DNA of 64,000 nucleotides from a bacterium (lineage in GTDB: Bacteria > Pseudomonadota > Alphaproteobacteria > SP197): the NCBI GenBank assembly GCA_028821455.1, contig JAPPGE010000082.1, positions 1 through 64,000 on the forward strand, read 5' to 3'. The position numbers and the translations under genes were made by a program. Positions 44,529-64,000 of the stretch are shown here, one piece after another. Each line of letters starts with the position of its first letter. Within the stretch, counting starts at the first letter, position 1. Below the pieces are notes generated by a model that saw only the letters and a program-made list of their open reading frames with translations, searched no databases and was not told the origin of the DNA.

Positions 44529-45623
44529 ATGAACAGACGCAAGTTTCTGGCTGGCACCGGTATCGCGGCGGCAGGCGCAGCCGGCACGGTGGCCACAGCA
44601 TTTCCGACACCGGCGATATCACAGGGCCGCAAGACCCTGACCATGGTGACGTCGTGGGGACGCGGCCTCGCCGGCGTCCATGATGCCGCCCAGCGTTGTG
44701 CGGACAGCATTGTCGCCATGTCCGACGGCATGATCGAAATCGACTTCAAGGCGGCAGGTGAACTCGTTGGCGCCTTCGAGTGCTTCGATGCGGTGTCGTC
44801 CGGGCAGGCCGACATCTACCATGCCGCCGACTACTATTTCGTCGGTCAGCATCCGGCGTTCGCCTTCTACACGTCGGTTCCCTTCGGCATGACGGCCGAG
44901 GAACTGAACAACTGGTACTACCACATGGGCGGCCGCGAGCTGCAGGACGAGCTCACCTCGATCTTCAACTTGAAGACCTTCCTTGCCGGCAACACCGGAT
45001 CTCAGGCCGGTGGCTGGTTCCACAAGGAGATCAACGGGCCGGATGATTTCGAGGGCCTGCGGTTCCGCATGCCCGGTCTCGGAGGCAAGGCGCTCGGCGA
45101 ACTTGGCGCTTCCGTCCAGAACATTCCCGGAGCCGAGGTCTACAACGCGCTCTCCAAGGGCGAGATCGACGGTACGGAATGGATCGGCCCGTGGGCCGAC
45201 GAGAAGGCCGGATTCTTCGAGATCACGAAGATCTACTATACGTCCGGCTTCCATGAGCCGGGTCCGGGACTCTCGCTTGCCGTCAACCGGCAGGTCTACG
45301 ACGGGCTTTCGGCCTCTGAACAGAAGATCATCGAGTGTGCGGCAGGCGAGGCCAACGTGTGGAATCTCTCGCAGTTCCTCGCCAACAACTCGGCCGCCCT
45401 GCAGAGGCTGATTGCTTCGGGCGTCCAGACCTTCGCCTTCCCCGACAGTGTCTGGGACGCCTTTGGCGTGGCCGCCGAAAAGGTGTACGCGGAAAACATG
45501 GGGGATCCTCTGTTCAAGACGATCTACGACTCCTATCGCGATTCGCTCGTCAAGTCGGCGAGCTGGAATGCGCTGTCGTCCATTGCCTATGCGCAGCAGC
45601 GCAACCGCGTCATGGGTATCTGA
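44529..45623 (+). CDS. TRAP transporter substrate-binding protein (DctP/TakP type)
   Basis: 364 residues. The N terminus 'MNRRKFLAGTGIAAAGAAG' carries a twin-arginine-type signal (RRKFL plus a weakly hydrophobic stretch), so it is exported to the periplasm, perhaps folded. The mature part shows 'TMVTSWGRGLAGVHDAAQRC', 'GLRFRMPGLGGKALGELGAS' (ligand Arg) and 'KGEIDGTEWIGPWADE', the pattern of TakP-like binders of 2-oxoacids. AAGGAG precedes the start by six bases. It is first in an operon with the two membrane subunits. Confidence 0.9.
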   Translation: MNRRKFLAGTGIAAAGAAGTVATAFPTPAISQGRKTLTMVTSWGRGLAGVHDAAQRCADSIVAMSDGMIEIDFKAAGELVGAFECFDAVSSGQADIYHAADYYFVGQHPAFAFYTSVPFGMTAEELNNWYYHMGGRELQDELTSIFNLKTFLAGNTGSQAGGWFHKEINGPDDFEGLRFRMPGLGGKALGELGASVQNIPGAEVYNALSKGEIDGTEWIGPWADEKAGFFEITKIYYTSGFHEPGPGLSLAVNRQVYDGLSASEQKIIECAAGEANVWNLSQFLANNSAALQRLIASGVQTFAFPDSVWDAFGVAAEKVYAENMGDPLFKTIYDSYRDSLVKSASWNALSSIAYAQQRNRVMGI

Positions 45624-45631
45624 ATTCCAAG

Positions 45632-45662
45632 GGCGCCCGCATCGTGAGACGGTGCGGGCGCC
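45632..45662 (+). promoter_or_regulatory. Stem-loop between binding-protein and permease genes
   Basis: GGCGCCCGCA (45632-45641) and TGCGGGCGCC (45653-45662) pair perfectly; three more pairs and a G-T wobble extend the stem to a GAG loop. No T-run follows. In transporter operons such hairpins often stabilise the upstream binding-protein mRNA or reduce read-through to the permease genes. Confidence 0.65.
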
Positions 45663-45680
45663 GGTCCCCGTGCGCGACAC

Positions 45681-46589
45681 ATGTCGGACGCCATTCTCTG
45701 GCTTCTGCGCCATCTTCTCGACGGGCTGGCCAATCTCTTTTACCTGTTGATCGAGCCAGGGGCGTGGCCTGACCCTTCCGATGGCATCGGCCTGGTGAGG
45801 ATTGTCTACTTCGGCGCCTCCCTCGAGTTCCTGTTCGTCATCGTTGATCTTGCCCTCATCATCCTCGTCATCGGCCTTCTGAAACCCGGATTCCTCTGGC
45901 TCGTGGTGCGTGGCATCGAGGGCCTCTCCAACATCATCGGCCGCGTTGCCGCCTGGGCAGTTCTCATCATGGTCATCCAGCAGATCATGATCATCGCCCT
46001 GCAGCGTATCTTTCTCGTTTCGGAAATCACCGTAGGGCCGTTCGGCGTCGTGTTTACCAGGGACCTCAGCTGGTTCAGCGAGGAACTCAAGCTCTACAAT
46101 GCGGCAATCGTAACCCTGTGCGCGGCCTACACGTTCGTCCAGGGCGGTCATGTGCGGGTCGACCTTGTCTATGCTTCGGTGTCCTTCCGCACGAAGCGGC
46201 TGCTGGACATGTTCGGTTCAGTCTTCTTCGTGATGCCGTTCTGTGGCGTGGTGTGGCTGTTCGGCTGGTTCTTCCTGTGGCGCCACCTCGTCACGCCGAA
46301 GGTGTCGGCGATTGATACCCTCGAGCTCCTGGAACGCAAGGCGCAACTGCTCCGCTGGAATGTCGAGACCATCGGCTTCTCGCCGAACGGCTTCGATGCC
46401 TACTTCCTCTTCAAGGTTCTGCTGGTTTCGTTCGCCGGGCTGATGTTCCTCCAGGGACTGGGGCACTTCTACCGCAGCCTGCTGGAGTTCAGGGAAGGGA
46501 AGGCATCGGCCAACCGCTACAAGGATCTCGACACCATACCGGACGTCGTGCCCGACAAGCCGGCCGATGGCGCCGGGGCAGGCGCCTGA
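45681..46589 (+). CDS. TRAP transporter small permease (DctQ), enlarged
   Basis: 302 residues, well above the 160-200 usual for DctQ. Hydrophobic segments appear near 42-65, 85-108, 135-155, 170-195 and 235-260. The DctQ-like pattern is 'AAYTFVQGGHVRVDLVYASV'. Additional N-terminal helices and a long loop before the last helix account for the extra length. A Pro/Asp/Gly/Ala-rich C-terminal tail is cytoplasmic by prediction. Its stop overlaps the ATG of the large permease (TGATG). Confidence 0.85.
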   Translation: MSDAILWLLRHLLDGLANLFYLLIEPGAWPDPSDGIGLVRIVYFGASLEFLFVIVDLALIILVIGLLKPGFLWLVVRGIEGLSNIIGRVAAWAVLIMVIQQIMIIALQRIFLVSEITVGPFGVVFTRDLSWFSEELKLYNAAIVTLCAAYTFVQGGHVRVDLVYASVSFRTKRLLDMFGSVFFVMPFCGVVWLFGWFFLWRHLVTPKVSAIDTLELLERKAQLLRWNVETIGFSPNGFDAYFLFKVLLVSFAGLMFLQGLGHFYRSLLEFREGKASANRYKDLDTIPDVVPDKPADGAGAGA

Positions 46590-48943
46590 TGTTCGGATTT
46601 GACGGTGTCGAGGTCGGGCTCCTCATTACCCTGGTGTGCCTGTTTGGCGGGATCCTCTCGGGGTATCCCGTGGCCTTCGCCATTGGCGGATCCGCACTTG
46701 TCGCCTTCGCCATCATCGCCGGCCTGAGTGAATCCGGCCTGCTGGTCAAGGAAGTCATCGACAGCCGCAGCGACGACTATGCGGCACTGATCGGCTCGGG
46801 CGTGAAGGAACACGCGATCACCCTCTTTCGCTATCCCGACCTGCCGACACTGACCGTTCCGGTCTTCGAGAAGGGTGTGGATGGCGCCTTCTTCCGCATC
46901 CTCACCTTCATCGTCAACCGGATGAATGAACGCGTGCTCGCCGGCCCCTCCATCGAACTGCTCCTGGCCGTCGCCATGTTCATTCTCATGGGCATCTCCC
47001 TGGAGCGCTCGCGGATCGCCCAGGACCTGTTGACGTCCATGGCCCGTGTCTTCGGCGCTCTCCCCGGGGGCCTGGCTGTCTCTGTGGTGGTGGTGGGCGC
47101 CTTTCTCGCCGCTTCGACCGGTATCGTCGGCGCCACCGTCGTCACCATGGGGCTGCTGTCTCTGCCCACCATGCTGCGCAACCGGTATTCGCCCGAGCTG
47201 GCGACCGGAGTGATATCGGCCTCGGGTACCCTGGGGCAGATCATCCCGCCATCGATCGTGATCGTTCTCCTTGGAACCCTCGCCGGCGACCTCTACTCGA
47301 CCGCTCAGGAGGAACGTGCGGTGACCGCGGGGTGCCGTGATGCTCTCACATATCTCGGCGAAGCGGCCGTGGTCTCCGTGGGCACTCTCTTCAAGGCGGC
47401 AATCGTTCCCGGCCTGCTTCTGGCGTTCATCTATGCCGCCTATGTGTTCTGCTATGCCCTGGTGCGCCCCTCGAAGGCGCCTCCCGTGCGTGTCGCCGCC
47501 GCCAGCCTGGCGGATGAGGGTGCCACTCTCAACCATCGTCTCTTCTGGTTCCTCGCCGTCCCGGGTCTGGTGATTGCCCTGGCAGGAGGAATGGTGACCG
47601 CCGGCATTGCCGGCCCGCAAACGGTTGACCGGCTGGCTCTCGTCGAGCGACCGGAATCACCGGAGCTGCGCACCAACGTTACCGACGATTGCAAGAAATC
47701 CATGATCGAGCTCCACGGGCAGGAAAAATGGGACCGGTCGGTTGCCGTGGCGGGATCCGGAGCAGCGGCCGAATTCGTGACGCCGACGGACGAGGAGCTC
47801 GATGTTCTCGAGGCCGAAGCCATTGCCTTCCTGCCACCGGTGTCCGAAAAACTGCTGGTCGGCCTCGTCATCCTGGGTCTGGTCATGTCGATCGCCTGGG
47901 GTGTCGCGCCATCCGCGTCCCGCCGGCCCCTTCTCGTCGGTGCCGGCGGGATTGCCGCCACGCTGGCGGCGGACGCCTGGCTGGTGACACCGGTGATGAG
48001 CACCGGCACCGCCTGGCTCATCCTCGCGCTACCGGTCGTTGCCGTGCTCTACGGCGTGCGCCATGCGCTGCCGCGCCTTGCCGAGGTCGAAGTCCTGCGC
48101 GTCGTCTTCCCGCCTCTCGTTCTCATCGTTGCCGTGCTCGGTTCCATACTCGGTGGCGTGACGAGCCCGACCGCCGCCGCCGGTCTCGGCGCGTCGGGAG
48201 CGCTGATGCTGTCGGCCTACCGCCGCCTCTCCGAGCGCAAGGACCACCGCAAGGGGAGGTTCATCATCATGTCGGCGTGGGCCGTGGTGGTGTTCCTGCT
48301 CGTCGGCACCAGTTTCGATCTCAGAACGTCGATCGAGGTGGTCGGTTTCGAGAACTGGCTGGCCTTCATCGTTTCCGTCGTCGCCTACCACATTGCATTT
48401 GCGGGGCTGATCTACTCCTGTGTCATTCTCTATCGCGACGGGATTCTGGGTTCCGTGGTGCGCGATACGGCGAAGGTGACGGCGATGGTGTTCGCCATCC
48501 TGATCGGTTCCCAGATGCTCAACCTCGTGGTGATTTCCTATGGCGGCGAAGAGCACATCCAGGAGTTCCTGCGCTCGTTCGACGACGAGATGGTCGTCTT
48601 CCTGGTGGTCATGGCCGTGCTCTTCATCTTGGGGTTCGTCCTTGATTTCCTGGAGATCATCTACATCGTCATTCCCATCGTCGGGCCGGTGATCTACGGC
48701 GGTACACTCGATCCCAAGTGGGTGACGATCATGATCGCCGTCAACCTGCAGACCTCCTTCCTGACACCGCCCTTCGGCTTTGCGCTCTTCTATCTGCGTG
48801 GCGTGGCGCCGCCGAACATCACCACGGGCCAGATCTACAGGGGTGTGGTGCCCTTCGTCATCATCCAGTTGATTGCGCTCACACTGATGTGGCTCATCCC
48901 TGACATCACCACATTCCTCCCGGACTTCCTGCCGGAGCATTGA
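46589..48943 (+). CDS. TRAP transporter large permease (DctM), with extra domains
   Basis: 784 residues, against about 430 for standard DctM. The family core is split: 'GGILSGYPVAFAIGGSALVA' at the N terminus, then 'STGIVGATVVTMGLLSLPTM' and 'SASGTLGQIIPPSIVIVLLG' near 185-235. The closing half, 'GGVTSPTAAAGLGASGALML' and 'NLQTSFLTPPFGFALFYLRG', lies at about 520-760. Inserts sit near 50-120 (hydrophilic) and 290-460 (a soluble stretch flanked by helices). The protein moves substrate with a sodium gradient. Confidence 0.88.
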   Translation: MFGFDGVEVGLLITLVCLFGGILSGYPVAFAIGGSALVAFAIIAGLSESGLLVKEVIDSRSDDYAALIGSGVKEHAITLFRYPDLPTLTVPVFEKGVDGAFFRILTFIVNRMNERVLAGPSIELLLAVAMFILMGISLERSRIAQDLLTSMARVFGALPGGLAVSVVVVGAFLAASTGIVGATVVTMGLLSLPTMLRNRYSPELATGVISASGTLGQIIPPSIVIVLLGTLAGDLYSTAQEERAVTAGCRDALTYLGEAAVVSVGTLFKAAIVPGLLLAFIYAAYVFCYALVRPSKAPPVRVAAASLADEGATLNHRLFWFLAVPGLVIALAGGMVTAGIAGPQTVDRLALVERPESPELRTNVTDDCKKSMIELHGQEKWDRSVAVAGSGAAAEFVTPTDEELDVLEAEAIAFLPPVSEKLLVGLVILGLVMSIAWGVAPSASRRPLLVGAGGIAATLAADAWLVTPVMSTGTAWLILALPVVAVLYGVRHALPRLAEVEVLRVVFPPLVLIVAVLGSILGGVTSPTAAAGLGASGALMLSAYRRLSERKDHRKGRFIIMSAWAVVVFLLVGTSFDLRTSIEVVGFENWLAFIVSVVAYHIAFAGLIYSCVILYRDGILGSVVRDTAKVTAMVFAILIGSQMLNLVVISYGGEEHIQEFLRSFDDEMVVFLVVMAVLFILGFVLDFLEIIYIVIPIVGPVIYGGTLDPKWVTIMIAVNLQTSFLTPPFGFALFYLRGVAPPNITTGQIYRGVVPFVIIQLIALTLMWLIPDITTFLPDFLPEH

Positions 48944-49857: not shown

Positions 49858-50841
49858 ATGCAGTATACCAGACACCCCCCGGCGAACGGTGCCATACCGG
49901 AGATCGACATTGCGCCCTTCAGTGAGCGCGATGAGAAGGCCCGCGATCTCGTCGCAGCGAGAGTTCGTGCGGCGTGCGAGGATACCGGGTTCTTCCTGAT
50001 TTCCGGTCACGGGTTTCCCCGGGCACTCCTCTCCCGCATCGGTGAGGCATCCCGCGAATTCTTCGATCTCCCCCTTGAGCAGAAGAGGCAGGTCGGCGAG
50101 AGCGGACCCGTCCCGGGCGGATTGATGTATTTCGGGCATGGCGCCGAAGCGCTTGGGGCCACTCTGGGAGCGGAATTGATCGGCGACTTCAAGGAGACCC
50201 TCGACTTCGGACCGGGATTCCATGGTGACGCGTGGCCGTGCGAACCGGCGGACCTGGAGCCGGCGTGGCGGGCGTGTTACGGGGCGATGTCGGAGCTGGC
50301 GCAGACATTGCGCCATGTGTTCGCCAGGTCCCTCGATCTTGACGCCGACGGTTTCGACAAACTGTTCGAGGGGCACCTGTCGTCATTGAGGGTCATCAAC
50401 TATCCGGAGCAGACCCGTCCGCCGCGTCCGGGCCAGTTGCGGGCGGGCGCCCACTCGGACTATGGCGTCCTGACAATTCTCGCGACGGATGATGCGCCGG
50501 GTGGCCTTGAAGTCCTGAAACGGGACGGTTCATGGTGTGCCGTTCCCCACGTGGCCGGCGCATTCGTGGTCAACATCGGGGACGCGATGATGCGCTGGAC
50601 GGATGATCACTGGGTGTCGACCCGGCACCGCGTGGTCAACCCGCCGCGTGACTCGACAAGGCCCACGCGCCGCCAGTCGATCGCCTACTTCCACAACCTG
50701 CCGCGTGATACCACCATCGCGTGCCTGGAACCGTTTCGCCAGGCGGGGCGTCAGCCGAAGTACCCGCCCATCACCTATGGTGAGTATGCGACGCTCCGCT
50801 ATCGCCAGGCTCATGGCGACGACAAGAACCTCGAATTGTAG
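49858..50841 (+). CDS. Isopenicillin N synthase-like 2-oxoglutarate/Fe(II) oxygenase
   Basis: 327 residues from the ATG at 49858. An N-terminal DIOX_N region ('IPEIDIAPFSERDEKARDLV' and 'ACEDTGFFLISGHGFPRALL') is followed by the jelly-roll core. The iron triad is H and D in 'GAHSDYGVLTIL' and the distal H in 'STRHRVVNPP'. The Arg-x-Ser that holds 2-oxoglutarate is 'RRQSIAYFHN'. Typical reactions are hydroxylation or oxidative demethylation of small metabolites. It lies 11 bases upstream of a Rieske oxygenase gene, so it may share its amine-degrading role. Confidence 0.9.
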   Translation: MQYTRHPPANGAIPEIDIAPFSERDEKARDLVAARVRAACEDTGFFLISGHGFPRALLSRIGEASREFFDLPLEQKRQVGESGPVPGGLMYFGHGAEALGATLGAELIGDFKETLDFGPGFHGDAWPCEPADLEPAWRACYGAMSELAQTLRHVFARSLDLDADGFDKLFEGHLSSLRVINYPEQTRPPRPGQLRAGAHSDYGVLTILATDDAPGGLEVLKRDGSWCAVPHVAGAFVVNIGDAMMRWTDDHWVSTRHRVVNPPRDSTRPTRRQSIAYFHNLPRDTTIACLEPFRQAGRQPKYPPITYGEYATLRYRQAHGDDKNLEL

Positions 50842-50852
50842 CGGAGGTCCAG

Positions 50853-51971
50853 ATGACATCGCATTCAGCAGCCGCACTGGGCATCGATATCGAAGAGATT
50901 GACCGCAGACTTTCGGAGAACTGGAGTCTGCCCACCCGGTTCTACTCGGATCCGGATATCTTCAGTCTCGAGCTTGAGGCGATCTTTGCGCGGCGTTGGC
51001 AGTTCTTCTGCCCGCTCCACAAGGTGAAGAATCCGGGAGACGCTGCTGTGAGGCAGGTTGGACGCTATCCCGTCGTCGTCGTGCGCGGCCGTGACGGCCG
51101 CCTCAACGGATTTCTCAATGTCTGCCGGCACCGCGGCTACACCGTCGTTGAAAGGGACAAGCGTTCCTGCGTGCGCCTCGTCTGCCGGTACCACGGGTGG
51201 TCCTACAATCTCGACGGTTCGCTGGCTCATGCACCCGACGCCGCCGGCGAAGCCGGGTTCTGTTCCGCAGACCTTGGTCTCAGACGGGTAGCGGTCGACG
51301 AGTGGGGCGCCATGGTGCTGGTCCATCCCGATCCCGATGCGGCGCCCCTGCGCGATACCTACCCGGAGATGTTCCGCACGGCCCGCGAGGCCGGATTCGA
51401 CATCGATACGGACGACTGGATCCCCTACAGGGAGGTCGTCTATGACATCCCCACCAACTGGAAGCTGTGGTACGACAACGGTACCGAATGCTACCACTGT
51501 CCCAACATCCACTCGGAATCCTTCGGCAAGGCCTTCAACGTGGATCCCGCTCTGACCGACATGCGCCTGGGTGAGGGTTTCACGTCGTACACGTTCATGA
51601 GCCCGGCAGAGAGGTCGGCCAACGACCTGATGGCGAACAGCTATATCTCGTTTCAGCTTTTTCCCGGCATGACCTACATCGCGCAGGATGAGTTCATGCA
51701 CATGACCGGCATGACGCCCCTGGAACCCGGCCTGACGCGGCACACCGCGTACTACATGGCGCACAGAGGCGCTGACGAGGAGCGACTCGAAGGCTGGTTC
51801 AGGATCTGGGATGACACCTATCGCGAGGACAACGAGATCACGGCGGTGCAGTACGAGAACCTCAAGTGTGCCCGTCAGCCCCACAATCGCTATGTCGCCG
51901 GGCGTGAAGCACCGGCACAGCACATCAACGCCATGGTGTGGAAGGATTGCAAGGCGGCCCTGCTCGCCTGA
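50853..51971 (+). CDS. Rieske non-haem iron oxygenase, alpha subunit (betaine/carnitine-type)
   Basis: 372 residues. The Rieske [2Fe-2S] centre is C91-H93 ('NVCRHRGYT') and C111-H114 ('VCRYHGWSY'). The mononuclear iron site has H215 and H220 in 'NGTECYHCPNIH'. A Glu (E212) sits where other oxygenases carry the bridging Asp, as in carnitine monooxygenase CntA. Members of this subgroup oxidise or demethylate quaternary amines such as carnitine, stachydrine or glycine betaine. The partner reductase gene is not nearby. Confidence 0.88.
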   Translation: MTSHSAAALGIDIEEIDRRLSENWSLPTRFYSDPDIFSLELEAIFARRWQFFCPLHKVKNPGDAAVRQVGRYPVVVVRGRDGRLNGFLNVCRHRGYTVVERDKRSCVRLVCRYHGWSYNLDGSLAHAPDAAGEAGFCSADLGLRRVAVDEWGAMVLVHPDPDAAPLRDTYPEMFRTAREAGFDIDTDDWIPYREVVYDIPTNWKLWYDNGTECYHCPNIHSESFGKAFNVDPALTDMRLGEGFTSYTFMSPAERSANDLMANSYISFQLFPGMTYIAQDEFMHMTGMTPLEPGLTRHTAYYMAHRGADEERLEGWFRIWDDTYREDNEITAVQYENLKCARQPHNRYVAGREAPAQHINAMVWKDCKAALLA

Positions 51972-52063
51972 CCGCCGCGCCGCGCACAGCCTCGGCCAGG
52001 GCATGCCGGCCGCCTGAAGGCAAGGAGGGCGGTCACCCTCGAATTGTCTGAAGGAGGACCGTC

Positions 52064-52936
52064 ATGCATGGCACGATCTGCGTGGTCGGGCTGGGAACCA
52101 TGGGCCGTCCCATGGCCCGGTGTCTTGGCTCGGCAGGATGCGACCTGGTCGGTTGGGACAGAGATGCCGAGGCGAGGAAGGGGCTGGCCCTGGCATCTCT
52201 CGAGGAGACAGCGCTCGGGGCGGATACGGTGATGACCATGCTCCCGGATGGCGAGAGCGTGGCTTCGGTGATCGAAACCCTCCTTGAACAGCGGAAGGAT
52301 CGCATCTTTCTCGACTGTTCCTCGATCGATGTGGCCACCACGCGCCGCCTTGCCGGGATGGCGGCAGCAGCGGGCTGCGGATTTGTCGATGCGCCGGTGT
52401 CGGGTGGCCCCGAAGGCGCAGCGAACGGAACCCTGAGCTTCATGGTTGGCGGATCGCCGGGCCATGTCGCCCGGGTCCGGCCCCTGCTCGACATCATGGG
52501 ACAGCAGGTCATTCATTTCGGCGAGACCGGATCGGGCCAGGCCGCCAAGGCCTGCCACAACATGATCTGCGGCATCACCATGCTCGGTGTTTGCGAGGCT
52601 TTCGCGCTGGCGGAGTCTCTCGACCTCGATGCCGGGAAGTTCCACGACCTGTGCCGCGGAGCCGCGGCGCAGAGCTGGATTCTGGACAACCGCTGTCCGG
52701 TACCCGGACTGATGTCCGATGCGCCGGCAACCCATGACTACACCCCGGGGTTTGCCGCACGGCTGATGGCCAAGGATCTTTCCCTCGCCCAGCAGGCGGC
52801 ATTGATCTCCGGTCAGACAACGCCCTTCGGAGCCGAGGCCGCACGGCGTTTCGCACACTTTGATGCATCCGGGCATGGTGACCTCGACATCTCCGCCATC
52901 TACCGGGCGATCCGTCGTGGATCGATGACGGGGTGA
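52064..52936 (+). CDS. Beta-hydroxyacid dehydrogenase (3-hydroxyisobutyrate dehydrogenase-like)
   Basis: 290 residues, starting with 'VVGLGTMGRPMARCLGSAG' (Rossmann motif for NAD(P)). The substrate-binding block 'FVDAPVSGGPEGAANGTLSF' and the catalytic Lys in 'SGQAAKACHNM' define the family. It oxidises short hydroxyacids or reduces semialdehydes. It is placed after the Rieske oxygenase and before the convergent dimethylglycine-dehydrogenase-like gene, so it may handle the carbon skeleton left after amine removal. The two convergent stops are only two bases apart. Confidence 0.9.
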   Translation: MHGTICVVGLGTMGRPMARCLGSAGCDLVGWDRDAEARKGLALASLEETALGADTVMTMLPDGESVASVIETLLEQRKDRIFLDCSSIDVATTRRLAGMAAAAGCGFVDAPVSGGPEGAANGTLSFMVGGSPGHVARVRPLLDIMGQQVIHFGETGSGQAAKACHNMICGITMLGVCEAFALAESLDLDAGKFHDLCRGAAAQSWILDNRCPVPGLMSDAPATHDYTPGFAARLMAKDLSLAQQAALISGQTTPFGAEAARRFAHFDASGHGDLDISAIYRAIRRGSMTG

Positions 52937-52938
52937 TG

Positions 52939-55344
52939 TCAGGCCTTCAGGCGAGCGTTGTCCGGATCGTAGAAGGGCAGGGGCGACGGTGCCGCGGGAC
53001 AGTCGTTCCCGAGGATCCTGATGGACCAGGAGCCCGGTCGCGTGTTGGCCCTGACATAACCCAGGGCAAGACGTTTCATCATGCGAAAGCCGGTGCCGGC
53101 CGATGTCACGTAGCCGACCGGCACCGAATCGAGGAGGATCGGATCACCGGGCAGCGCGTCCGCATCGCTGTCGGCTATGGTGAATCCGGCGAATCGCCAG
53201 GCGGATCCGGTTCGGCGCTGTCGCGCCACGGCATCGCAGCCCATGAAATCCGTCCTGTCGAAGGCAATGAAGCGCTCCAGTCCGGCATCGAACGGGGTGT
53301 ACTCGATGCCGATGTCGAGACCCCAGGCGTGATAGCCCTTTTCGAGACGCAGTGAATCGAGGGCCCATGAGCCGAAGTCGACGAGACCCAGGTCCCGTCC
53401 GGGGTGCCGCAAGGCGTCGTGGACCGTCCGGAGATCGGCTGAAGCGAGATGAAGTTCCCAGCCCAGTTCGCCGGCATAGGAGACGCGCAGGGCCGTCGCT
53501 GCACATCCGGCGACGGTGACGGGGCTCGCGGTGAGCCAGGGCATCGCATCGTTCCCGAGACCGGCATCGGTTACGGTTGCCAGAAGGTCGCGTGACAGGG
53601 GTCCGGCCAGCATGAGGGTGGCGTCCTGCGCATATCCGCGGCGCAGTGTGACACGCCATCCCGCCGGCAGGGCTTCTCGCAACCAGTCGTGGTCACGCTG
53701 TTCGGCCAGGGTCGGACCGCACAGAAGATAGTGGTTCTCGCCCAAACGGGTGATGGTGGCCTCGCTCCAGATCCTGCCTGACGGGGTGAGCATGTAGGCA
53801 AGGCGCGTGCGGAGTGCTGCCGGAATCCGGCCACAGAACACCCGTTCGAGATACCGCGTTGCATCCGGTCCCTCGACCTCGAACTTGGAGAAACCGCCGT
53901 GGTCCATGATGCCAACACGATCGCGAACTCCCTCGCATTCACGCCGCACCGCATCGCGCCACGGTTCCCGGTCGCGGAAACTCAAACGCGCATCGTCCCT
54001 TCTGCCGTCGGTGTCGAACCAGGAGGCGCGTTCCCAGCCACCGATTTCACCGAAGACCGCACCCCTGGAAGCCAGGGAGCGATAGAGAGGTGTTGTCCTC
54101 ATGGGCCGTGAAGAAGAGAGAAGACGCCGGGGGTAGGGAATGGCGTACTGCAGGCCGTAGACCTCGACCGCTCGTTCGACAGCCATCCCTTGCGTGGCCC
54201 AGTCGCCAAAGCGGCGGGGATCCCAGGCCGCCATGTCCCACTCGGTTTCGCCTTCGCTGATCCACTCTGCAATGGCTTTGCCGGCGGCGGCAGAATGGGT
54301 GATGCCGATCTGGATGCCGCAGGCATGAAAGAAGTTCCTCAGGCCATAGGCCGGACCGCACAGCGGCAGGGCATCCGGAGAGTAGGCGATGGGGCCGTTG
54401 ACGAAACGCCGGACTCCGGTCTCCCGAAGCAGCGGAAAATGATCAAGCGCCTTTTCGAAGGCCAACGCGATATCGTCGGGTGACTCGTTGAAGAGCTGGT
54501 GGGCAAAGTCCTGTGGCAGCCCGTCGACGAAGGCTGGCCGGCCGGGATGATCGTAGGAACCCAGCAGCATCCCGGCGCCTTCGCGCCTCAGGTAGAAACC
54601 GAGATCGGGATCCCGCACCAGGGGGAAGGCTTCCTTCGATTCCAGGAGAGCGGTGAGGGGCTCGGTGACCAGGTACTGGTGCTTGAGTGTTGCCACCGGA
54701 ATGGACTGTCCGGCAAGGCGCGCCACGGCTCCGCCGTAGAAGCCGGCGGCATTGACGACGGTGTGGGCGATCACGTCACCCTTGTCGGTCGTCACGCGCC
54801 ATTCACCGCTGCGCGTGGCCGAAAGATCCGTGACCCGGGTGAACCGCTCGATCGCAGCACCGGCCTGGCGGGCCTGTCCGGCGAGCGCCTGCGTGAGTTG
54901 GGAGGGGTCGATGTCCCCTTCACCGGGATCGAGAATGCCACCGATAACGTCCGGTCCGGCCTTATAGTGGGGATGCAGCGCCTCCATCTCGCCAGGCGTG
55001 ATCATCACGAGCTCCACGCCGGCGGAGGTCGCCAGACCGGCGAGGTGCCGGAACAGATCGATGCGATCCTCGCCGTGGGCCGGCCAGAAGGCGCCGGTAT
55101 GGTGATAGCTGACGTCCTCTCCGAGATCGCCATAGAGACGCCGCGCATAGGCGCCTGCGCGCATTCCGAGCCAGCTTGTCGCATAGATCGGAATGTTGCC
55201 CGCAGCATGCCATGTGGAACCGGATGTGAGTTCATCCCTTTCGATCAGCAGGCACTCGGTGACACCGGCCCGGACCAGATGCCACAAGCAGGAAACGCCG
55301 ACGGCACCGCCGCCGATGACAACGACCCTCGCCGAACTCTGCAT
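52939..55344 (-). CDS. FAD oxidoreductase with GcvT domain (dimethylglycine dehydrogenase-like)
   Basis: 801 residues. An N-terminal DAO-type FAD domain has 'VVVIGGGAVGVSCLWHLVRA' and the covalent-flavin His in 'SGSTWHAAGN'. The C-terminal half (about 430-800) is GcvT/aminomethyltransferase-like: 'DHGGFSKFEVEGPDATRYLE', 'GELGWELHLASADLRTVHDA' and 'KGYHAWGLDIGIEYTPFDAG'. Such enzymes demethylate dimethylglycine or sarcosine and pass the one-carbon unit to tetrahydrofolate. With the Rieske oxygenase it supports stepwise N-demethylation of a betaine. Next upstream on its strand is the racemase-like gene. Confidence 0.9.
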   Translation of the reverse strand: MQSSARVVVIGGGAVGVSCLWHLVRAGVTECLLIERDELTSGSTWHAAGNIPIYATSWLGMRAGAYARRLYGDLGEDVSYHHTGAFWPAHGEDRIDLFRHLAGLATSAGVELVMITPGEMEALHPHYKAGPDVIGGILDPGEGDIDPSQLTQALAGQARQAGAAIERFTRVTDLSATRSGEWRVTTDKGDVIAHTVVNAAGFYGGAVARLAGQSIPVATLKHQYLVTEPLTALLESKEAFPLVRDPDLGFYLRREGAGMLLGSYDHPGRPAFVDGLPQDFAHQLFNESPDDIALAFEKALDHFPLLRETGVRRFVNGPIAYSPDALPLCGPAYGLRNFFHACGIQIGITHSAAAGKAIAEWISEGETEWDMAAWDPRRFGDWATQGMAVERAVEVYGLQYAIPYPRRLLSSSRPMRTTPLYRSLASRGAVFGEIGGWERASWFDTDGRRDDARLSFRDREPWRDAVRRECEGVRDRVGIMDHGGFSKFEVEGPDATRYLERVFCGRIPAALRTRLAYMLTPSGRIWSEATITRLGENHYLLCGPTLAEQRDHDWLREALPAGWRVTLRRGYAQDATLMLAGPLSRDLLATVTDAGLGNDAMPWLTASPVTVAGCAATALRVSYAGELGWELHLASADLRTVHDALRHPGRDLGLVDFGSWALDSLRLEKGYHAWGLDIGIEYTPFDAGLERFIAFDRTDFMGCDAVARQRRTGSAWRFAGFTIADSDADALPGDPILLDSVPVGYVTSAGTGFRMMKRLALGYVRANTRPGSWSIRILGNDCPAAPSPLPFYDPDNARLKA

Positions 55345-55349
55345 TGTCT

Positions 55350-56054
55350 CTAGCGTTGTGCCAGGAGTTGACCGAAGCCGTCGATCGGGTCCGTGATCCC
55401 GAGATGCCGCAGGGTCTGCCAGTAGAGGGCCGCATTGCAGGCGACCACCGGTTTGCCTGTCAGTGTCTCCAGGGACGCGACGAGGTGGCAGACCGGAAGG
55501 GCCGTTCCCACCTGGAGGATGGCATCGCAGTCACTGGCAGCGACCTCGAGAAAGGCCGCCTCGATGTCCTCCGGCGACGTCTTGCAGATTTCCGGCAGCG
55601 ATGGTGCGTCGGTGCCGGCGACCGCGGCCACGGCGAACCCGGCGTCCACCGCATTGCCGGTGACGACCTCATTGGTGGCAGCATCGAAGGGTGTGACGAT
55701 GGAGATCCTCCTGGCATCGAGGCGCCGCAGGGCCTCATGACAGGCGGACGAGGCATTGAAGACCGGGATTCCCAGCGACGAAGCCAGACCGCGGCAGCGC
55801 TCCTGGAGTTTCTTCACGCCACCCGGCCCGGCGTCCGTGGTCAGGCCGATCGCCAGGGCTGCCGGATTGCAGTCCATCAATCTGGTGGCCTCGGCGTCGA
55901 GGTCCTCCGAAATCTTCTCGCCGCCCAGGCGGAATCTCTGCATCTGGTTTGTCACGCCAGGCGGACGCAGGGATTCAAGTTCCGGCTGCACGACGGTGTT
56001 CATCGCCGGTGTCATCACACCGATGATCGAGCGATAGCCCAGAGTGTCGGTCAT
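55350..56054 (-). CDS. Asp/Glu racemase superfamily protein (arylmalonate decarboxylase/maleate isomerase-like)
   Basis: 234 residues. 'YRSIIGVMTPAMNTVVQPEL' is the N-terminal active-site region of the maleate isomerase and arylmalonate decarboxylase branch. The second Cys is kept, C206 in 'KPVVACNAALYW'. At the first Cys position the sequence reads 'IGLTTDAGPGG' (T72/T73), so only one catalytic thiol is visible. That arrangement matches decarboxylase-type more than racemase-type members. The reaction is unknown. It lies between the flavoprotein and an SRPBCC gene in the amine cluster. Confidence 0.8.
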   Translation of the reverse strand: MTDTLGYRSIIGVMTPAMNTVVQPELESLRPPGVTNQMQRFRLGGEKISEDLDAEATRLMDCNPAALAIGLTTDAGPGGVKKLQERCRGLASSLGIPVFNASSACHEALRRLDARRISIVTPFDAATNEVVTGNAVDAGFAVAAVAGTDAPSLPEICKTSPEDIEAAFLEVAASDCDAILQVGTALPVCHLVASLETLTGKPVVACNAALYWQTLRHLGITDPIDGFGQLLAQR

Positions 56055-56492
56055 TCAGCTGTTTTCCGTCAGCCAGGCGGCGAGCCCTTTCATCCCGTCG
56101 CGGTAGATGAGATCGCCGACGATCGACTCCAGTTTCTCTTCATCCTCCCTGGCACAGTCGAATGTTCCTTCCCAGATGCCGAGTGTCCAGTTGCCTTCGG
56201 TAATCGGGACGAAGCGGTGCGTGGAGAGATAGCCGGTGCAGGGCAGGGGCCCCTCGATGATGTCGTAGGTGTAGAAACGGTCGACATCGGAATGGGCCAG
56301 CAGCGTTTCGCGAAAGACGGTGCCGTCGACGATGTCAAGATGCCGCACCGACCCGACCGAGGTCGATGTACCTGTCTCCATGCGGGCGGCCGAGACGGCC
56401 GGATTCCACGCACCCACACTGTCGAATTCCCTGACGGCCGCCCATGTCCTGTCGATCGGGGCCTCGATGACGATACTGCGGTAAACGTTCAT
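56055..56492 (-). CDS. SRPBCC (START-like) family protein
   Basis: 145 residues with the polyketide cyclase/dehydrase (SRPBCC) pattern: 'VYRSIVIEAPIDRTWAAVRE' and 'WNPAVSAARMETG', then a C-terminal helix 'EEKLESIVGDLIYRDGMKGL'. These proteins form a deep pocket for hydrophobic ligands; many have no known reaction. It abuts the MttB-like gene upstream, whose stop is one base before its ATG, and the racemase-like gene downstream. It probably belongs to the same transcript. Confidence 0.82.
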   Translation of the reverse strand: MNVYRSIVIEAPIDRTWAAVREFDSVGAWNPAVSAARMETGTSTSVGSVRHLDIVDGTVFRETLLAHSDVDRFYTYDIIEGPLPCTGYLSTHRFVPITEGNWTLGIWEGTFDCAREDEEKLESIVGDLIYRDGMKGLAAWLTENS

Positions 56493-58022
56493 TCACTCGT
56501 CTCCAGTTGCCGGAAGTCTGATGGGAAAGCGCGAGCGGATGACCTGATCCGCTGTTGCTTCGAGGTGAGACGGCGCCGGGGCGTCGACGATGCGGGCGAC
56601 TCTGGACCGTGCCCTTTCCCAGAGCGATACCGGACCGGACTCGACCCACTCGTGCACGCTGCGCCTGTCACCCAGGCACGGGTAGACATACTCGCTCTTC
56701 ATGAGCGCCAGTGTCTGCGGTTCGCCAAGGTAGTGGCCATCGCCCCGAACAACGCGCTCCATGGCGTCAAGGTCGATGGCATCCGGCGTGACGTCAACGC
56801 CGCGCACCGAACGCAGGATGGCGCCCAGCATTTCGTCATCGATGACAAGGGCCTCTGGCGAGGCCACAGTGATGGATCCCAGCATGCCGACGGACAGATT
56901 GATCATGTCTGCTCCCGCGTGAGCAGCCAGGGCAATGGTGTAGGCCTTCTCATACCCGGCCTGGACGTCCGCCTCCTTGGAGTCTGTCATGCCGGCGGCA
57001 ACCGTGGACGGCAGCTGAAGATGGCGCAGGAGCTGGGCTGCTGCTGCATTCGCAATGGCCGATTCGCCGCCTCCACCACTCATGGCGCCGGTTCTGAGAT
57101 CGGAGATGAACGGCATGAAGGCGTGGATGACGGGGTAGCCGGGCTTGAGGAGGTCCACCACCATGAGGCCGGCGAGGGTCTCGGCGAGTCCCTGGGCGAG
57201 GGCGCCGGCCAGTGTGACGGGGCTTGTGGCGCCCGCCTGGCCCGCCGAACATGTCTGCAGCGGTATGCCTTCGGCGATGGCGGCGCGCATGATGTCGACA
57301 CCATCGGGTGCATAGCGAAGAGGTGAGACTGCATGCACCACAACCGCCATGCAGAAGGGGTGCCGGCGAAAGCCGCCTTCGGCCCCAAGAGCGCAGTCGA
57401 ACATGGACACCACCGGAGCGACGTGACCGGCATGGGCGAATGAGGTGCCGATGGGCTTGCTCGTTCCGGCAAGGCAGGCATAGGCGGTGTTAATGTCGAT
57501 TTCGAAGGTGTCGGTCATGTCCCGCGCCACAAGGGGGCGGATGCCGTAGTGCACGTTTGGACACGCATCCACCACCCGCATGATGGAAAGGAGATCACGA
57601 AGCGTGGCGGCTCGATAGCATCCGGTGGCGGCATCGAGCACATCGATGGCGGCTCCGCCGGTGCCGGTATGGACCAGACCATTGCCCGCATCGATGCCCC
57701 GGTCCTCGACGAAGCCCGGCACGGTCACGCTCTTCGCCGCCCGCGCCACGGCCTTCTCGACCCGCAGGCGGGGGAAGATAATGCGCCCGTCCCCGTGCCG
57801 CCTGGCGCCATCATCAATCGCAAGCCGGATGAACCAGTCCGGAGCCGATGCCATGCCGATCCGTTCGAGAATGGAAAAGGCGCTGTCGATGATCGTGTCG
57901 CGGGACGTGTCATCGAGCGGCGAGAACCGGCCACCCCGGTCCCTGCGCGGAGCGTTTGCCGGGAGACTGGCCGATCCTCGGGATCTCGGCCGCGCCGCCC
58001 GCTGGTTGTCGGTCCGGCTCAT
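56493..58022 (-). CDS. MttB-family trimethylamine/betaine methyltransferase homologue without pyrrolysine
   Basis: 509 residues, a TIM-barrel methyltransferase of the COG5598 family. 'LVHTGTGGAAIDVLDAATGC' near the N-terminal third and 'QTCSAGQAGATSPVTLAGAL' in the core match the family. The reading frame is continuous, with no in-frame UAG, so the pyrrolysine of archaeal MttB is absent. Known non-pyrrolysine members act on glycine betaine or related quaternary amines and pass the methyl to a corrinoid protein. No corrinoid protein gene is adjacent. The 40-residue N terminus is basic and disordered. Confidence 0.88.
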   Translation of the reverse strand: MSRTDNQRAARPRSRGSASLPANAPRRDRGGRFSPLDDTSRDTIIDSAFSILERIGMASAPDWFIRLAIDDGARRHGDGRIIFPRLRVEKAVARAAKSVTVPGFVEDRGIDAGNGLVHTGTGGAAIDVLDAATGCYRAATLRDLLSIMRVVDACPNVHYGIRPLVARDMTDTFEIDINTAYACLAGTSKPIGTSFAHAGHVAPVVSMFDCALGAEGGFRRHPFCMAVVVHAVSPLRYAPDGVDIMRAAIAEGIPLQTCSAGQAGATSPVTLAGALAQGLAETLAGLMVVDLLKPGYPVIHAFMPFISDLRTGAMSGGGGESAIANAAAAQLLRHLQLPSTVAAGMTDSKEADVQAGYEKAYTIALAAHAGADMINLSVGMLGSITVASPEALVIDDEMLGAILRSVRGVDVTPDAIDLDAMERVVRGDGHYLGEPQTLALMKSEYVYPCLGDRRSVHEWVESGPVSLWERARSRVARIVDAPAPSHLEATADQVIRSRFPIRLPATGDE

Positions 58023-58386
58023 GGAAAATTGTTGTCACGCTCCGGGTGCAGGTTCAATTCCGAATACGTGCGAGCCTCATTCGCATTCGCCCGAAACACC
58101 TGATCGGAGAACATCAAGTCGCATTATGGCCAAACGGCGCACGTCCGTGCGAGCGCCAGATAAGGTTGAACCGTGCTTCCGGTGAGAACCTGCGATCCGG
58201 TTTCCTCGACGTGCGGCTGGCGAGGCAGAAAGCAGGTGTTCAGGTCGTTGATCGTCGATTGCGACCCCGCAATCATCGCATCCTGTTGTTCGCGGCGGTT
58301 CCCGGGATAGAGTGGCTTGCGCCACTCACGGGACGAGAGCTCAGCTGTCTTCCTGGCGACGGAACGACAGTGAAGAGTGCATCACC
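58023..58386. other. Divergent intergenic region with a stem-loop
   Basis: The 364 bases between the MttB-like gene and the transporter gene hold no credible open frame. GAGTGGC (58310-58316) and GCCACTC (58321-58327) form a perfect stem with a four-base loop about 60 bases upstream of the transporter ATG. No T-run follows it. Both promoters should lie here, but I could not pick reliable -35/-10 pairs. No known riboswitch core was recognised. Confidence 0.45.
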
Positions 58387-59277
58387 ATGGGTCGACAGTT
58401 GTGGCTGACAGGCTGCCTGCTCTTTATCGGTATCGCCTGGGGCGTGGTGCCAAGTCTGGCGCGGCTGGCCACGACCGAGGGGGCGGATACTCTCAATGCA
58501 ACGTTCCTGCAGTCCCTGGCCGGTGGACTTGTGCTCCTGGCCCTGACGCTCGTGCGCGGCAAGAGGTTTATCCTGTCCTGGCGTCACATGTGGTTCTACA
58601 CGGTGTGCGGCTTCACCGGGACCACGATCCCGACAGCCATCATTTTCGCGGCCTCTCCTGAAGTCGGAGCCGGCATGATCGCCATAGTGATCGCGCTTGC
58701 ACCCATCCTCACCTACTTTGGCGCCCTCGTTCTCGGATTCGAACCGCACCGCTTCTGGCGTCTTGTCGGCATTGCCCTGGGCTTTGCCGCCGTGCTTCTC
58801 ATCGTTCTCCCGGATCTCGAGATCGGGCTGGAGTCCCTGACCGCGTGGCTCCTCATAACCTTGTTCATTCCCACTTGCTATGCCATTGAAAGCCTGATCA
58901 TTGCTCTCAGGCGACCACCGGAAGGCGATGCCATCATGCTGGTGGCGGGCATGCTGCTTTCGAGCGCGCTGGTGCTGCTGCCGGTTGTGCTGCTCGGCGG
59001 TTCTGCGGACACCCTGCTGCCCGGTTGGGATACGGCGTCCATGGCCGTGGGCAGCATTGCCCTCATCAACGTCACCGCTTACGTGATCTTTCTCTACCTG
59101 ATCTCTGCTGCAGGCCCGATATTCGCGACGTTCGCCGGCTACCTCAACATGGTGTCCGGCGTCGTCTGGGGCATCGTGCTGTGGCAGGAAAGCCATTCGC
59201 CGTGGGTCTGGGGCGCGGTCGTCCTGCTGGCCGCGGCGATGTATCTCGTCACGGAACGCAGGACTGCACAGACGTGA
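58387..59277 (+). CDS. EamA/DMT-family transporter
   Basis: 296 residues from the ATG at 58387; the frame from 58312 adds a hydrophilic, non-conserved stretch. Ten hydrophobic segments in two EamA repeats: 'GCLLFIGIAWGVVPSLARLA', 'IVIALAPILTYFGALVLGFE' and 'AGPIFATFAGYLNMVSGVVW'. It probably moves a small metabolite, perhaps related to the amine cluster that diverges from it. The direction and substrate are unknown. Confidence 0.88.
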   Translation: MGRQLWLTGCLLFIGIAWGVVPSLARLATTEGADTLNATFLQSLAGGLVLLALTLVRGKRFILSWRHMWFYTVCGFTGTTIPTAIIFAASPEVGAGMIAIVIALAPILTYFGALVLGFEPHRFWRLVGIALGFAAVLLIVLPDLEIGLESLTAWLLITLFIPTCYAIESLIIALRRPPEGDAIMLVAGMLLSSALVLLPVVLLGGSADTLLPGWDTASMAVGSIALINVTAYVIFLYLISAAGPIFATFAGYLNMVSGVVWGIVLWQESHSPWVWGAVVLLAAAMYLVTERRTAQT

Positions 59278-59430: not shown

Positions 59431-59946
59431 ATGAGTCGCAAGCGGACCTTCACCAAACGCCAGTTGCGTGATGCACTGGGCATGTTCGCGACTGGGGTGA
59501 CGATCATCACGTCCTCGACGCGCGACGGCGAACTCCTCGGAATCACGGCGAATTCCTTCAACGCGGTGTCGCTCGATCCGCCCATGGTGCTGTTCAGCCT
59601 GTCCCGCGAAGCGCACAGTCTCAACAAGTTCGAGACATCGGACTTCTTCGCCGTCAACGTCCTGTCGACGCGTCAGCGTTCCCTCTCCGATCGTTTCGCC
59701 CGGGCATCGGTCGACAAGTGGAAGGATGTCGCCTATGAGACCGGCGTGACAGGATGCCCGATGTTTCCGGGTTCACTGGCGCGCTTCGAGTGCTACACGC
59801 GGTTTCACTACGATGGCGGCGATCACGTCATCTTTGTCGGTGAGGCCTTTTCGATGATGCTGGGTGATCCGGCCGATCCTCTTCTCTACTTCCAGGGACA
59901 CTACCGTTCGCTGACACCCGATGTTTCAGACCTTGAATGGTCCTGA
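59431..59946 (+). CDS. Flavin reductase (FMN-binding split-barrel) domain protein
   Basis: 171 residues from the ATG at 59431 (in-frame ATG at 59419 possible). 'QLRDALGMFATGVTIITSST', 'GITANSFNAVSLDPPMVLFS' and 'FAVNVLSTRQRSLSDRFARA' are the flavin-reductase-like pattern that binds FMN. These proteins supply reduced flavin to monooxygenases or act as reductases. No two-component monooxygenase gene is adjacent. Its 3' end overlaps the convergent amidohydrolase gene by 46 bases. Confidence 0.88.
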   Translation: MSRKRTFTKRQLRDALGMFATGVTIITSSTRDGELLGITANSFNAVSLDPPMVLFSLSREAHSLNKFETSDFFAVNVLSTRQRSLSDRFARASVDKWKDVAYETGVTGCPMFPGSLARFECYTRFHYDGGDHVIFVGEAFSMMLGDPADPLLYFQGHYRSLTPDVSDLEWS

Positions 59947-60758
59947 AGAGGTATGCTGGAGCCGGTGTTGCCGTTGATCCAGTCGAGGGCTGCTGTCACG
60001 TATCGGGTGATGATGTCGCAAACGCGACGCGCGGAGTCGTCACGCCAGCGCAGGGGCAGGATCTCTTCCATGTAGATCGCCTGGGAGAGTTCCAGCTGGA
60101 TGGCATGGACACCCTGTGATGGATTGCCGTAGTGACGGGTGATGTAGCCCCCCTTGAAGCGGCCATTGACGGCGATGCTGAACGCGTTCTGCGCTGTCAG
60201 AGGCGCCACGACGCGCTCGAGGAGTTCCGGGTGGGCCGCCGCGCCGTCCGCCGTTCCGACATTGAAGTCGGCCAGCCTGCCATCGAAGAGGCGCGGCACC
60301 TCGGAGCGGATGGAGTGACCATCGAGAAGGACGATCTGCCGGTGGTGCTTCTGCAGCCTGGCGATTTCGCCGGAGAGAGTGTCGTGCCATGGCTTCCAGT
60401 AAAGCGCGATGCGTTCCTCGATTGCCCGGGAGTCGGGACGCTGTCCGGGTAGGTAGATTTCCTCGTGGTCGAAGGTCGTGAGGGGGACCAGTTCGGAGGT
60501 ATCCTCTCCCGGATAGAGGACCCGTTCGTCCGTCGCCCGGTTGAGGTCGACGACATAGCGGGAATGGGTGGCGGTCACCACGGTCGCATCGAGGTCTTCG
60601 GCACAAGCGTAGAGCCTGTCGACATGCCAGTCGGTGTCGGGAAGGTGCCGGGCGATCGGTGTCATCCGGTCGGCGATTGCCGCGGGGAGCCAGGTGCCGA
60701 CGTGGGGGAAACTGATGACAAGAGGGGCTTGACCCCGTTTCACGATGGATGTCTGCAC
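59901..60758 (-). CDS. N-formylglutamate amidohydrolase family protein
   Basis: 285 residues. The family hydrolyses N-formylglutamate to glutamate and formate in one branch of histidine degradation. 'LVISFPHVGTWLP' carries the first metal His, 'TDWHVDRLY' a second region and 'LLDGHSIRSEVPRLFDGRLA' the signature. 'DFNVGTADG' and the C-terminal 'QGVHAIQLELSQAIYM' also match. No other hut genes are nearby, so a role on other N-formyl amino acids is possible. The C-terminal tail overlaps the flavin reductase gene. Confidence 0.88.
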   Translation of the reverse strand: MQTSIVKRGQAPLVISFPHVGTWLPAAIADRMTPIARHLPDTDWHVDRLYACAEDLDATVVTATHSRYVVDLNRATDERVLYPGEDTSELVPLTTFDHEEIYLPGQRPDSRAIEERIALYWKPWHDTLSGEIARLQKHHRQIVLLDGHSIRSEVPRLFDGRLADFNVGTADGAAAHPELLERVVAPLTAQNAFSIAVNGRFKGGYITRHYGNPSQGVHAIQLELSQAIYMEEILPLRWRDDSARRVCDIITRYVTAALDWINGNTGSSIPLQDHSRSETSGVSER

Positions 60759-60770
60759 AGGCGGGATCCC

Positions 60771-63161: not shown

Positions 63162-64000
63162 CAGGCTGATTTCCTGGCGCGAAGTTCCCGAAGAATGGAC
63201 TCGCGATGTTCGTCGAGGCCCGGGATGTTGCCGCGTCGCGCAGGATCCTCGAACGCGGAAAACTTGATGGGATTGCCTGACATCCTGATGGCGCCCGCCT
63301 GGGCATCCTCGGCGGTGACGATCATGTTGCGCGACGCAACGTGCGGGTCAGACATGACATCCGCGACCGAGTTGATGGAGCCGCAGGGAACTCCGGCATC
63401 CTGCAGAAGGGCGAGCCAGTGATCGCCCGGTCTGCTGATCAGCACCTTCTCGATCTCCTCCTGGAGGGCATCGACGTAATCCGCCCGGGCGGCGTTGGTG
63501 GCAAACCGGCTGTCGGCGGCAAGGTGCGGGAGTTCGAGGAGGTCACAGAGCCTTTGGAAGAGGTCGTCATTGCCTGCTGCAATGACGATATGGCCGTCAC
63601 TCGTCCTGAACGCATCAAAGGGCACGATCGAAGGGTGGCGTGTGCCAAGTGGACCGGGGATCTCACCGGTGGCGGCATGGCGGACGATGGCATTTTCCAG
63701 TATGGCTATCTGGCAATCGAGCATCGCCACGTCGATCATGCCCCCTTCACCGGTCCGGGCCCTGTGGTGGAGGGCCGACGTGATGCCGATTGCCGTGAAG
63801 AGAGCCGCCGCGATGTCACCGATCGAGGTCCCGACACGCGTCGGTTCGCCCCCCGGATGTCCGGTGAGACTCATGACGCCGCCCATGGCCTGGACAACCA
63901 GATCGTATGCCGGTCGGTTGCTGTAGGGGCCGTTCTGGCCGAATCCGGACACTGCAGCATAGATGAGGCCCGGATGCCGTTCCTTCAGAATTGACCACGG
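63161..64000 (-). CDS. Class III CoA-transferase (CaiB/BaiF family), 5' end outside the window
   Basis: C-terminal 279 or more residues; the reading frame runs open through position 64000. 'AAVSGFGQNGPYSNRPAYDL', 'VVQAMGGVMSLTGHPGGEPT' and 'VGTSIGDIAAALFTAIGITS' are typical. 'RTGEGGMIDVAMLDCQIAIL' and 'DGHIVIAAGNDDLFQRLCDL' lie further on. The N-terminal part with the catalytic Asp is missing from the window. Such enzymes move CoA between acids such as carnitine, formate or oxalate, and some are racemases. It is coupled to the penicillin acylase gene (TGATG). Confidence 0.88.
   Translation of the reverse strand, partial: PWSILKERHPGLIYAAVSGFGQNGPYSNRPAYDLVVQAMGGVMSLTGHPGGEPTRVGTSIGDIAAALFTAIGITSALHHRARTGEGGMIDVAMLDCQIAILENAIVRHAATGEIPGPLGTRHPSIVPFDAFRTSDGHIVIAAGNDDLFQRLCDLLELPHLAADSRFATNAARADYVDALQEEIEKVLISRPGDHWLALLQDAGVPCGSINSVADVMSDPHVASRNMIVTAEDAQAGAIRMSGNPIKFSAFEDPARRGNIPGLDEHRESILRELRARKSA

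Follow-up and report, generated by a model that had tools for sequence, protein, structure and literature searches.

A conserved MttB and flavoprotein gene core in an alphaproteobacterium, predicted to strip N-methyl groups from a betaine

In aerobic marine bacteria, glycine betaine is demethylated through the corrinoid-dependent MtgBCD system, and the genes for later demethylations often lie near mtgBCD (PMC12478193, 2025). The precedent described in Ruegeria comprises MtgBCD, MetF2 and reactivation genes, and up to seven MttB homologues have been reported in marine bacteria (PMC12478193). In Eubacterium limosum, relatives of MttB act as demethylases of particular quaternary amines (PMC8604678), and sponge microbiomes reportedly express pyrrolysine-free mttB genes (PMC9999580). 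Here, we analyse a locus at positions 49858-59277 of a 64,000-nucleotide stretch (the window; contig JAPPGE010000082.1 of assembly GCA_028821455.1) from an alphaproteobacterium of the SP197 lineage, which is probably marine and invertebrate-associated judging from the setting of its relatives. An earlier note on this DNA had seen in it a probable route for a quaternary or N-methylated amine, and our results support a locus for the catabolism of such a compound, probably a quaternary one. We consider it likely that the minus-strand operon of this locus, which encodes an MttB homologue, is the core of an aerobic route stripping N-methyl groups from a betaine.

Checks of open reading frames and profiles in the window found all the genes named for this interval, in two facing blocks and in the orientations given by the earlier note. 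Read from 58022 to 52939, the minus strand encodes an MttB-superfamily methyltransferase (56493..58022), an SRPBCC small ligand-binding-fold protein (56055..56492, PF10604), a protein with the Asp/Glu-racemase, maleate-isomerase and arylmalonate-decarboxylase fold, EutA-like (55350..56054, PF17645, 52.5 bits), and a flavoprotein of the DMGDH/SarDH type (52939..55344). The intergenic gaps are 0, 0 and 5 bp, and the four genes are arranged as in an operon. The facing plus-strand block encodes an isopenicillin-N-synthase-like 2-oxoglutarate/Fe(II) (2OG) oxygenase (49858..50841, DIOX_N + 2OG-FeII_Oxy), a Rieske non-haem iron oxygenase of the stachydrine-demethylase/GbcA/CntA type (50853..51971, PF00355 + PF00848) whose gene begins 11 bp 3' of the former, and a beta-hydroxyacid dehydrogenase of the 3-hydroxyisobutyrate-dehydrogenase type (HIBDH; 52064..52936), likely acting at a later step. 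This locus is not a chance assembly, since its families match far above the Pfam cut-offs, start sites and gene order are kept in orthologous loci at 80-93% identity, and its core recurs in further families and phyla.

The first core gene encodes a member of the MttB superfamily (PF06253, 307.9 bits for a cut-off of 25, profile positions 4-489 of 500). As the earlier note had stated, this homologue is of the non-pyrrolysine kind: Met345 stands at the position of the pyrrolysine (Pyl334) of Methanosarcina MttB, and the gene has no internal stop. A pyrrolysine-containing MttB (TIGR02369) was rejected, the protein scoring 266 bits where 525 are needed and the gene having no in-frame amber codon. 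By homology, the window MttB is a predicted betaine:corrinoid methyltransferase. The second core gene encodes a protein with the DAO + FAO_M + GCV_T + GCV_T_C architecture and a TWHAAG motif at residue 44, features of the DMGDH/SarDH family; the histidine of this motif is presumably the one that binds FAD covalently. This flavoprotein passes no NCBIfam equivalog cut-off in profile searches, which places it at the family level only, as a predicted oxidative N-demethylase giving C1 units to folate.

These two genes form the most conserved part of the locus. Twenty-three loci of the same MttB subfamily were collected from one scan of genome contigs and from order-level and class-level searches, their genes being called with a simple gene caller of our own. 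The DMGDH-like gene lies on the same strand as the MttB gene and within 1.5 kb of it in 22 of them, a count inflated by kinship and to which many metagenome bins contribute. The pair spans two phyla, being found in Alphaproteobacteria, in one metagenome-assembled genome of Acidiferrobacterales and in Actinomycetota. In proteobacteria, SRPBCC and racemase-fold proteins accompany it: an SRPBCC gene adjoins MttB in 12 of the 23 loci, whereas a racemase-fold gene is found in 11 and an HIBDH gene lies nearby in 11. The earlier note had named unrelated phylogenetic distributions of the genes as what would speak against it; we looked for them and found co-occurrence instead, close copies of MttB, SRPBCC and the racemase-fold protein (at least 63% identity, the next matches reaching only about 44%) being carried by the same 4 of 385 genomes of the class. 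These four genomes belong to two families and hence represent fewer than four independent events. Furthermore, two plasmids of cultured Rhodobacterales carry ABC transporter, MttB and two DMGDH genes in this order, accompanied by LysR, aminotransferase and TRAP genes and, in one of them (L123), by an ALDH gene. The proteobacterial loci repeatedly contain orthologues of the LysR, aminotransferase and ALDH genes, at 52-77% identity, together with genes for HyuAB (caprolactamase-like), DHDPS-like, sulfatase and GS-like proteins. The HIBDH gene directly adjoins an ALDH gene in L045, L046 and L059. L045 and L046, which have neither the SRPBCC nor the racemase-fold gene, encode a SelA-like PLP enzyme and a D-glutamate-cyclase-like protein upstream of MttB. 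On the megaplasmid of Ruegeria pomeroyi DSS-3 (L125, 341780-355201), genes for MttB, a class III aminotransferase and two FAD oxidoreductases stand in a row behind a LysR gene; this is a relative operon in a genetically tractable host, and a literature search returned nothing usable on the role of this megaplasmid MttB.

The view of the earlier note that the union of oxidative and methyl-transfer demethylation in one locus is unusual finds no support: this union is already known for glycine betaine (PMC12478193), and the same genome repeats it. MttB is paired with DMGDH-like genes at two further loci, in the orders DMGDH-MttB-DMGDH (L067, 3753-10344, contig C89) and DMGDH-DMGDH-MttB (L076, 2307-8852, contig C11). 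On contig C60 (L068, 5449-8045), a Rieske oxygenase gene and a further MttB gene overlap in the same orientation, which makes a second pairing of these two families in this genome.

The conservation data divide the locus, which had been proposed to act as one for all eight genes. This stands for the MttB/DMGDH-like core; it does not for the Rieske, 2OG and EamA-type transporter genes, which among the 23 loci are common only to the two nearest relatives (L042 and L043). It is less likely that all eight genes serve one pathway, in which the 2OG and Rieske enzymes would act first (by hydroxylating the substrate, by removing N-methyl groups oxidatively or by cleaving a C-N bond, as Stc2 and CntA do), followed by HIBDH and the MttB/DMGDH block. 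In favour of this reading, the tight facing blocks are kept in the three nearest genomes, MttB and Rieske genes overlap on contig C60, and the Rieske protein is of the quaternary-ammonium type. Its best solved relatives are Stc2 (3vca/4qup) and CntA, and its Rieske and mononuclear iron motifs are intact: C91-H...C-H (CxH..CxxH), E212-C-Y-H....H (ECxHxxxxH) and E-D-N-E-I at 325 (EDxxI). Likewise, the HxD...H and RxS motifs of the 2OG oxygenase are intact. However, the Rieske and 2OG genes are missing from all the more distant loci that keep the core, and an unrelated gene of 618 codons (618 aa) splits Rieske from HIBDH in L043. Moreover, no cognate ferredoxin or flavin reductase was recognised among the genes beside the Rieske gene, the rest of the genome not having been searched for one; only an HpaC-like flavin reductase lies nearby (59431..59946, plus strand, PF01613, 136 bits), whose association is doubtful, being kept only in L042. 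We therefore prefer a route centred on the minus-strand operon, to which the Rieske and 2OG genes would have been added in this lineage only, perhaps to feed or broaden it.

A second alternative is that the window MttB is another glycine betaine methyltransferase (MtgB) and its partner an ordinary dimethylglycine dehydrogenase. The nearest solved relatives of the protein are indeed MtgB (9yce/2qne), the best matches in the PDB reaching about 147 bits, and colocation of MtgB and DMGDH has been reported for glycine betaine (PMC12478193). However, in a tree of 62 rows, MtgB (2qne), S. meliloti 4yyc and 11 other paralogues of the same genome form one clade, whereas the window MttB falls outside it, in a separate subfamily of 23 rows with support of 100/100 that includes members from Ruegeria, Acidiferrobacterales and Acidimicrobiales. 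Glycine betaine as substrate is disfavoured by this position and is probably not used by the window MttB. In addition, HIBDH, transaminase and ALDH partners would be superfluous for the conversion of glycine betaine to glycine. We thus regard this explanation as improbable. Within the subfamily itself, orthologues at 60-66% identity need not share one substrate, because MtcB and MtyB of E. limosum are 53% identical and yet prefer different substrates (PMC8604678).

The predicted methyl transfer requires partners, which are encoded elsewhere in the genome. Profile searches detected 15 PF06253 proteins (contigs C5, C11, C12, C42, C51, C54, C55, C60, C65, C78, C79 with two, C87, C89 and C101), one B12-binding_2 protein and one RACo C-terminal domain. 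A cluster on contig C24 (L041) encodes an MtgC-like corrinoid protein, a DUF1638 protein, two MTHFR, a DUF5981 protein, a Pterin_bind protein and a RACo protein. The genome thus holds the corrinoid protein, the pterin methyltransferase, MTHFR and the RACo-type protein that define an aerobic corrinoid hub, and since genes for the corrinoid protein, its reactivator, the pterin methyltransferase and two MTHFR cluster, methyl transfer to folate is genetically complete. MetH also carries B12-binding_2, one reason why other genomes give matches in the control; finding only one match here hence points to a genome without MetH, as reported for most genomes that encode MtgBCD (PMC12478193). The many MttBs therefore probably feed one corrinoid hub, and the window MttB would use it as well.

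Carriers of the window-type MttB show the same association: RACo is found in 13 of 16 such genomes searched. Of 17 genomes, the one studied here included, 16 have the corrinoid protein, in 15 cases with an identity of at least 73%. In our reading of the alignment, Gly123 of the window protein presumably corresponds to Gly110 of MttB. A corrinoid-contact glycine of MttB has been described (PMC9842639). We consider it highly improbable that the window MttB has given up its corrinoid for a role other than methyl transfer, since despite its strong divergence from characterised members and the lack of a corrinoid protein gene within the locus, the contact glycine is kept and the corrinoid protein and RACo occur in most carrier genomes.

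From the gene content, motifs, conservation, co-occurrence and hub, we infer the following reactions, their order and their substrate class. MttB would take the first methyl group from the quaternary ammonium and place it on the Co(I) of the single MtgC-like corrinoid protein, from which the pterin-binding methyltransferase of the C24 cluster would pass it to tetrahydrofolate. The MTHFR-like enzymes would then oxidise methyl-folate, and the RACo-type protein would re-reduce inactivated corrinoid. The resulting tertiary amine would be oxidatively demethylated by the DMGDH-like flavoprotein (second, perhaps third methyl), its C1 units going to folate. What is left of the carbon skeleton would reach HIBDH as a beta-hydroxy acid or a semialdehyde. 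The HIBDH protein scores 281.3 bits with TIGR01692, just under the cut-off of 291.6 that its L053 orthologue passes (298.2), and keeps the catalytic Lys. Its identity as the ordinary enzyme of the valine pathway was rejected, a separate true HIBADH gene (365 bits) being present on contig C83. In relatives, a class III transaminase would remove the remaining amine and HIBDH and ALDH would oxidise the skeleton. Because these partner genes fit it, a beta- or omega-amino-acid betaine is the substrate class that fits best. This route is supported by the pairing of MttB with the DMGDH-like gene in nearly all loci, by the single hub facing 15 MttBs and by the co-occurrence in four genomes of the class, as well as by the published precedents of glycine betaine in Ruegeria (PMC12478193) and of the MttB relatives of E. 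limosum (PMC8604678).

Several points weigh against it. The window MttB is only distantly related to characterised members, and the enzymatic steps are predictions. The C24 hub lies on another contig than the window MttB, their interaction being assumed. At the thresholds used, one carrier genome (G401) has MttB with neither corrinoid protein nor RACo, and two others (G010 and G260) have no RACo, the corrinoid match of G260 being weak (34%); these three assemblies may be incomplete. Lastly, a search of the genome recovered no orthologues of the aminotransferase and ALDH of relatives at comparable identity. The Rieske/2OG pair may stand in for these two enzymes.

The racemase-fold and SRPBCC proteins, accessories of the core in proteobacteria, are the most novel part of the locus. 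As the earlier note had observed, and we agree, they have to our knowledge no place in known glycine betaine or carnitine pathways. The racemase-fold protein (234 aa) matches maleate isomerase and arylmalonate decarboxylase (AMDase) in fold, with Foldseek E values down to 3e-13 and TM of about 0.7-0.75, for a model built from 7 sequences with a pLDDT of only 70, so that its active site is judged by sequence alignment alone. AMDase needs one catalytic Cys and the isomerases and racemases two. Neither position holds a Cys in any of 41 sequences (12 close and 29 more distant); the known Cys-based mechanisms are therefore inapplicable, and racemase, isomerase or AMDase chemistry of this type was rejected for the protein. 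A role as EutA in the ectoine pathway was likewise discarded (TIGR02990, 71.8 bits where 318 are needed), and a search of viral contigs yielded no relative. Alphaproteobacteria commonly encode members of a wider Cys-less branch of the arylmalonate-decarboxylase family (L082-L107 and other genomes of the class), which bear the motifs MGMSAETFWDG and VQVGTNL and are 30-43% identical to the window protein. The model of the SRPBCC protein is confident (pLDDT 85) and matches PYL/YPO0625/XoxI-like structures; it resembles small proteins of the START/PYL type that bind ligands. Both proteins probably act on the demethylated skeleton or bind it.

One specific substrate deserves mention, even though we give it very little credence. 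In the algal betaine lipid DGTA, the headgroup is 2-(hydroxymethyl)-3-(trimethylammonio)propanoate, a compound derived formally from 3-hydroxyisobutyrate by addition of a trimethylammonium group. The locus might degrade this headgroup, MttB and the DMGDH-like protein removing the methyl groups, HIBDH (with the ALDH of relatives) oxidising the hydroxymethyl to a malonate, and the racemase-fold protein decarboxylating the latter to beta-alanine by a cysteine-free mechanism. This proposal is chemistry fitted to gene families; if true, it would be the first bacterial route for a betaine-lipid headgroup. Literature searches returned no pathway for the catabolism of beta-alanine betaine or the breakdown of betaine-lipid headgroups, and nothing usable on the gene combination of the locus.

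Compared with described systems, the predicted route resembles the MtgBCD(E) and MetF2 system of Ruegeria pomeroyi and further marine bacteria: both are aerobic and combine a PF06253 methyltransferase with an MtgC-like corrinoid protein, a pterin methyltransferase, MTHFR and a reactivation protein, and mtgBCD is colocated with later demethylation genes in many genomes. It differs by an MttB outside the MtgB clade and by its SRPBCC, Cys-less racemase-fold and HIBDH partners. The operon of E. limosum is not known to involve further oxidation of the demethylated product by flavoprotein demethylases. Like MtpB, MtcB and MtyB of this bacterium, to which it is likened by description only, the window MttB is one of several non-pyrrolysine paralogues, which share corrinoid partners in E. 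limosum and probably here, the E. limosum ones serving different betaines; however, E. limosum is an anaerobic acetogen (PMC8604678). The Rieske protein shares the metal-site motifs of Stc2, GbcA and CntA, its best relatives in structural databases, but scores far below the cut-off of the GbcA equivalog (NF058607, 137.6 of 670 bits) and has no cognate reductase gene recognised nearby. The racemase-fold protein belongs to the fold and Pfam family of AMDase, maleate isomerase and EutA and, unlike them, has other residues at both catalytic Cys positions. Hence, the general route, corrinoid transfer followed by oxidation, is known for glycine betaine, whereas the enzyme lineage and partner genes are new and the substrate is probably new. 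Three elements are new: an uncharacterised MttB subfamily that is distinct from the MtgB clade and has its own accessory genes, a single genome in which one hub serves 15 MttBs, and a racemase-fold partner without the two catalytic cysteines.

Several other genes of the window lie near these blocks. An EamA-type transporter gene (58387..59277, plus strand, PF00892), specific to the lineage, encodes a possible exporter or importer. Outside the interval first noted, a TRAP transporter (DctP, PF03480, with small and large permeases; 44529..48943, plus strand) is a candidate importer, and TRAP genes also adjoin the core in L053 and L123. Directly upstream of it, the interval 43138-44386 holds a gene for a nitrile hydratase alpha subunit (NHase_alpha), probably of the cobalt type in our reading of its VCTLCSCY motif, and a neighbouring gene of 227 codons (227 aa) that presumably encodes the beta subunit. 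The end of the window (59901-64000) begins with an N-formylglutamate deformylase-like (HutG) gene, followed by large open reading frames whose products look to us like a penicillin acylase and a family III CoA-transferase.

In marine animals and algae, much nitrogen and many C1 units are present as methylated amines. Judging from our data, relatives of this bacterium seem to channel many substrate-specific MttBs, 15 here versus up to seven reported in marine bacteria (PMC12478193), through a single corrinoid hub. The data also delineate one conserved MttB subfamily that has a partner set of its own in marine Alphaproteobacteria, among them isolates of Ruegeria and one isolate associated with a clam. 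Since cultured carriers exist (Ruegeria sp. HKCCD8929, R. arenilitoris HKCCD8929-2 and Alisedimentitalea scapharcae KCTC 42119), the substrate should be findable by ordinary growth and knockout work. Its identity would extend the 2025 model of glycine betaine demethylation to another compound and would give a function to the cysteine-less branch of the racemase/AMDase fold.

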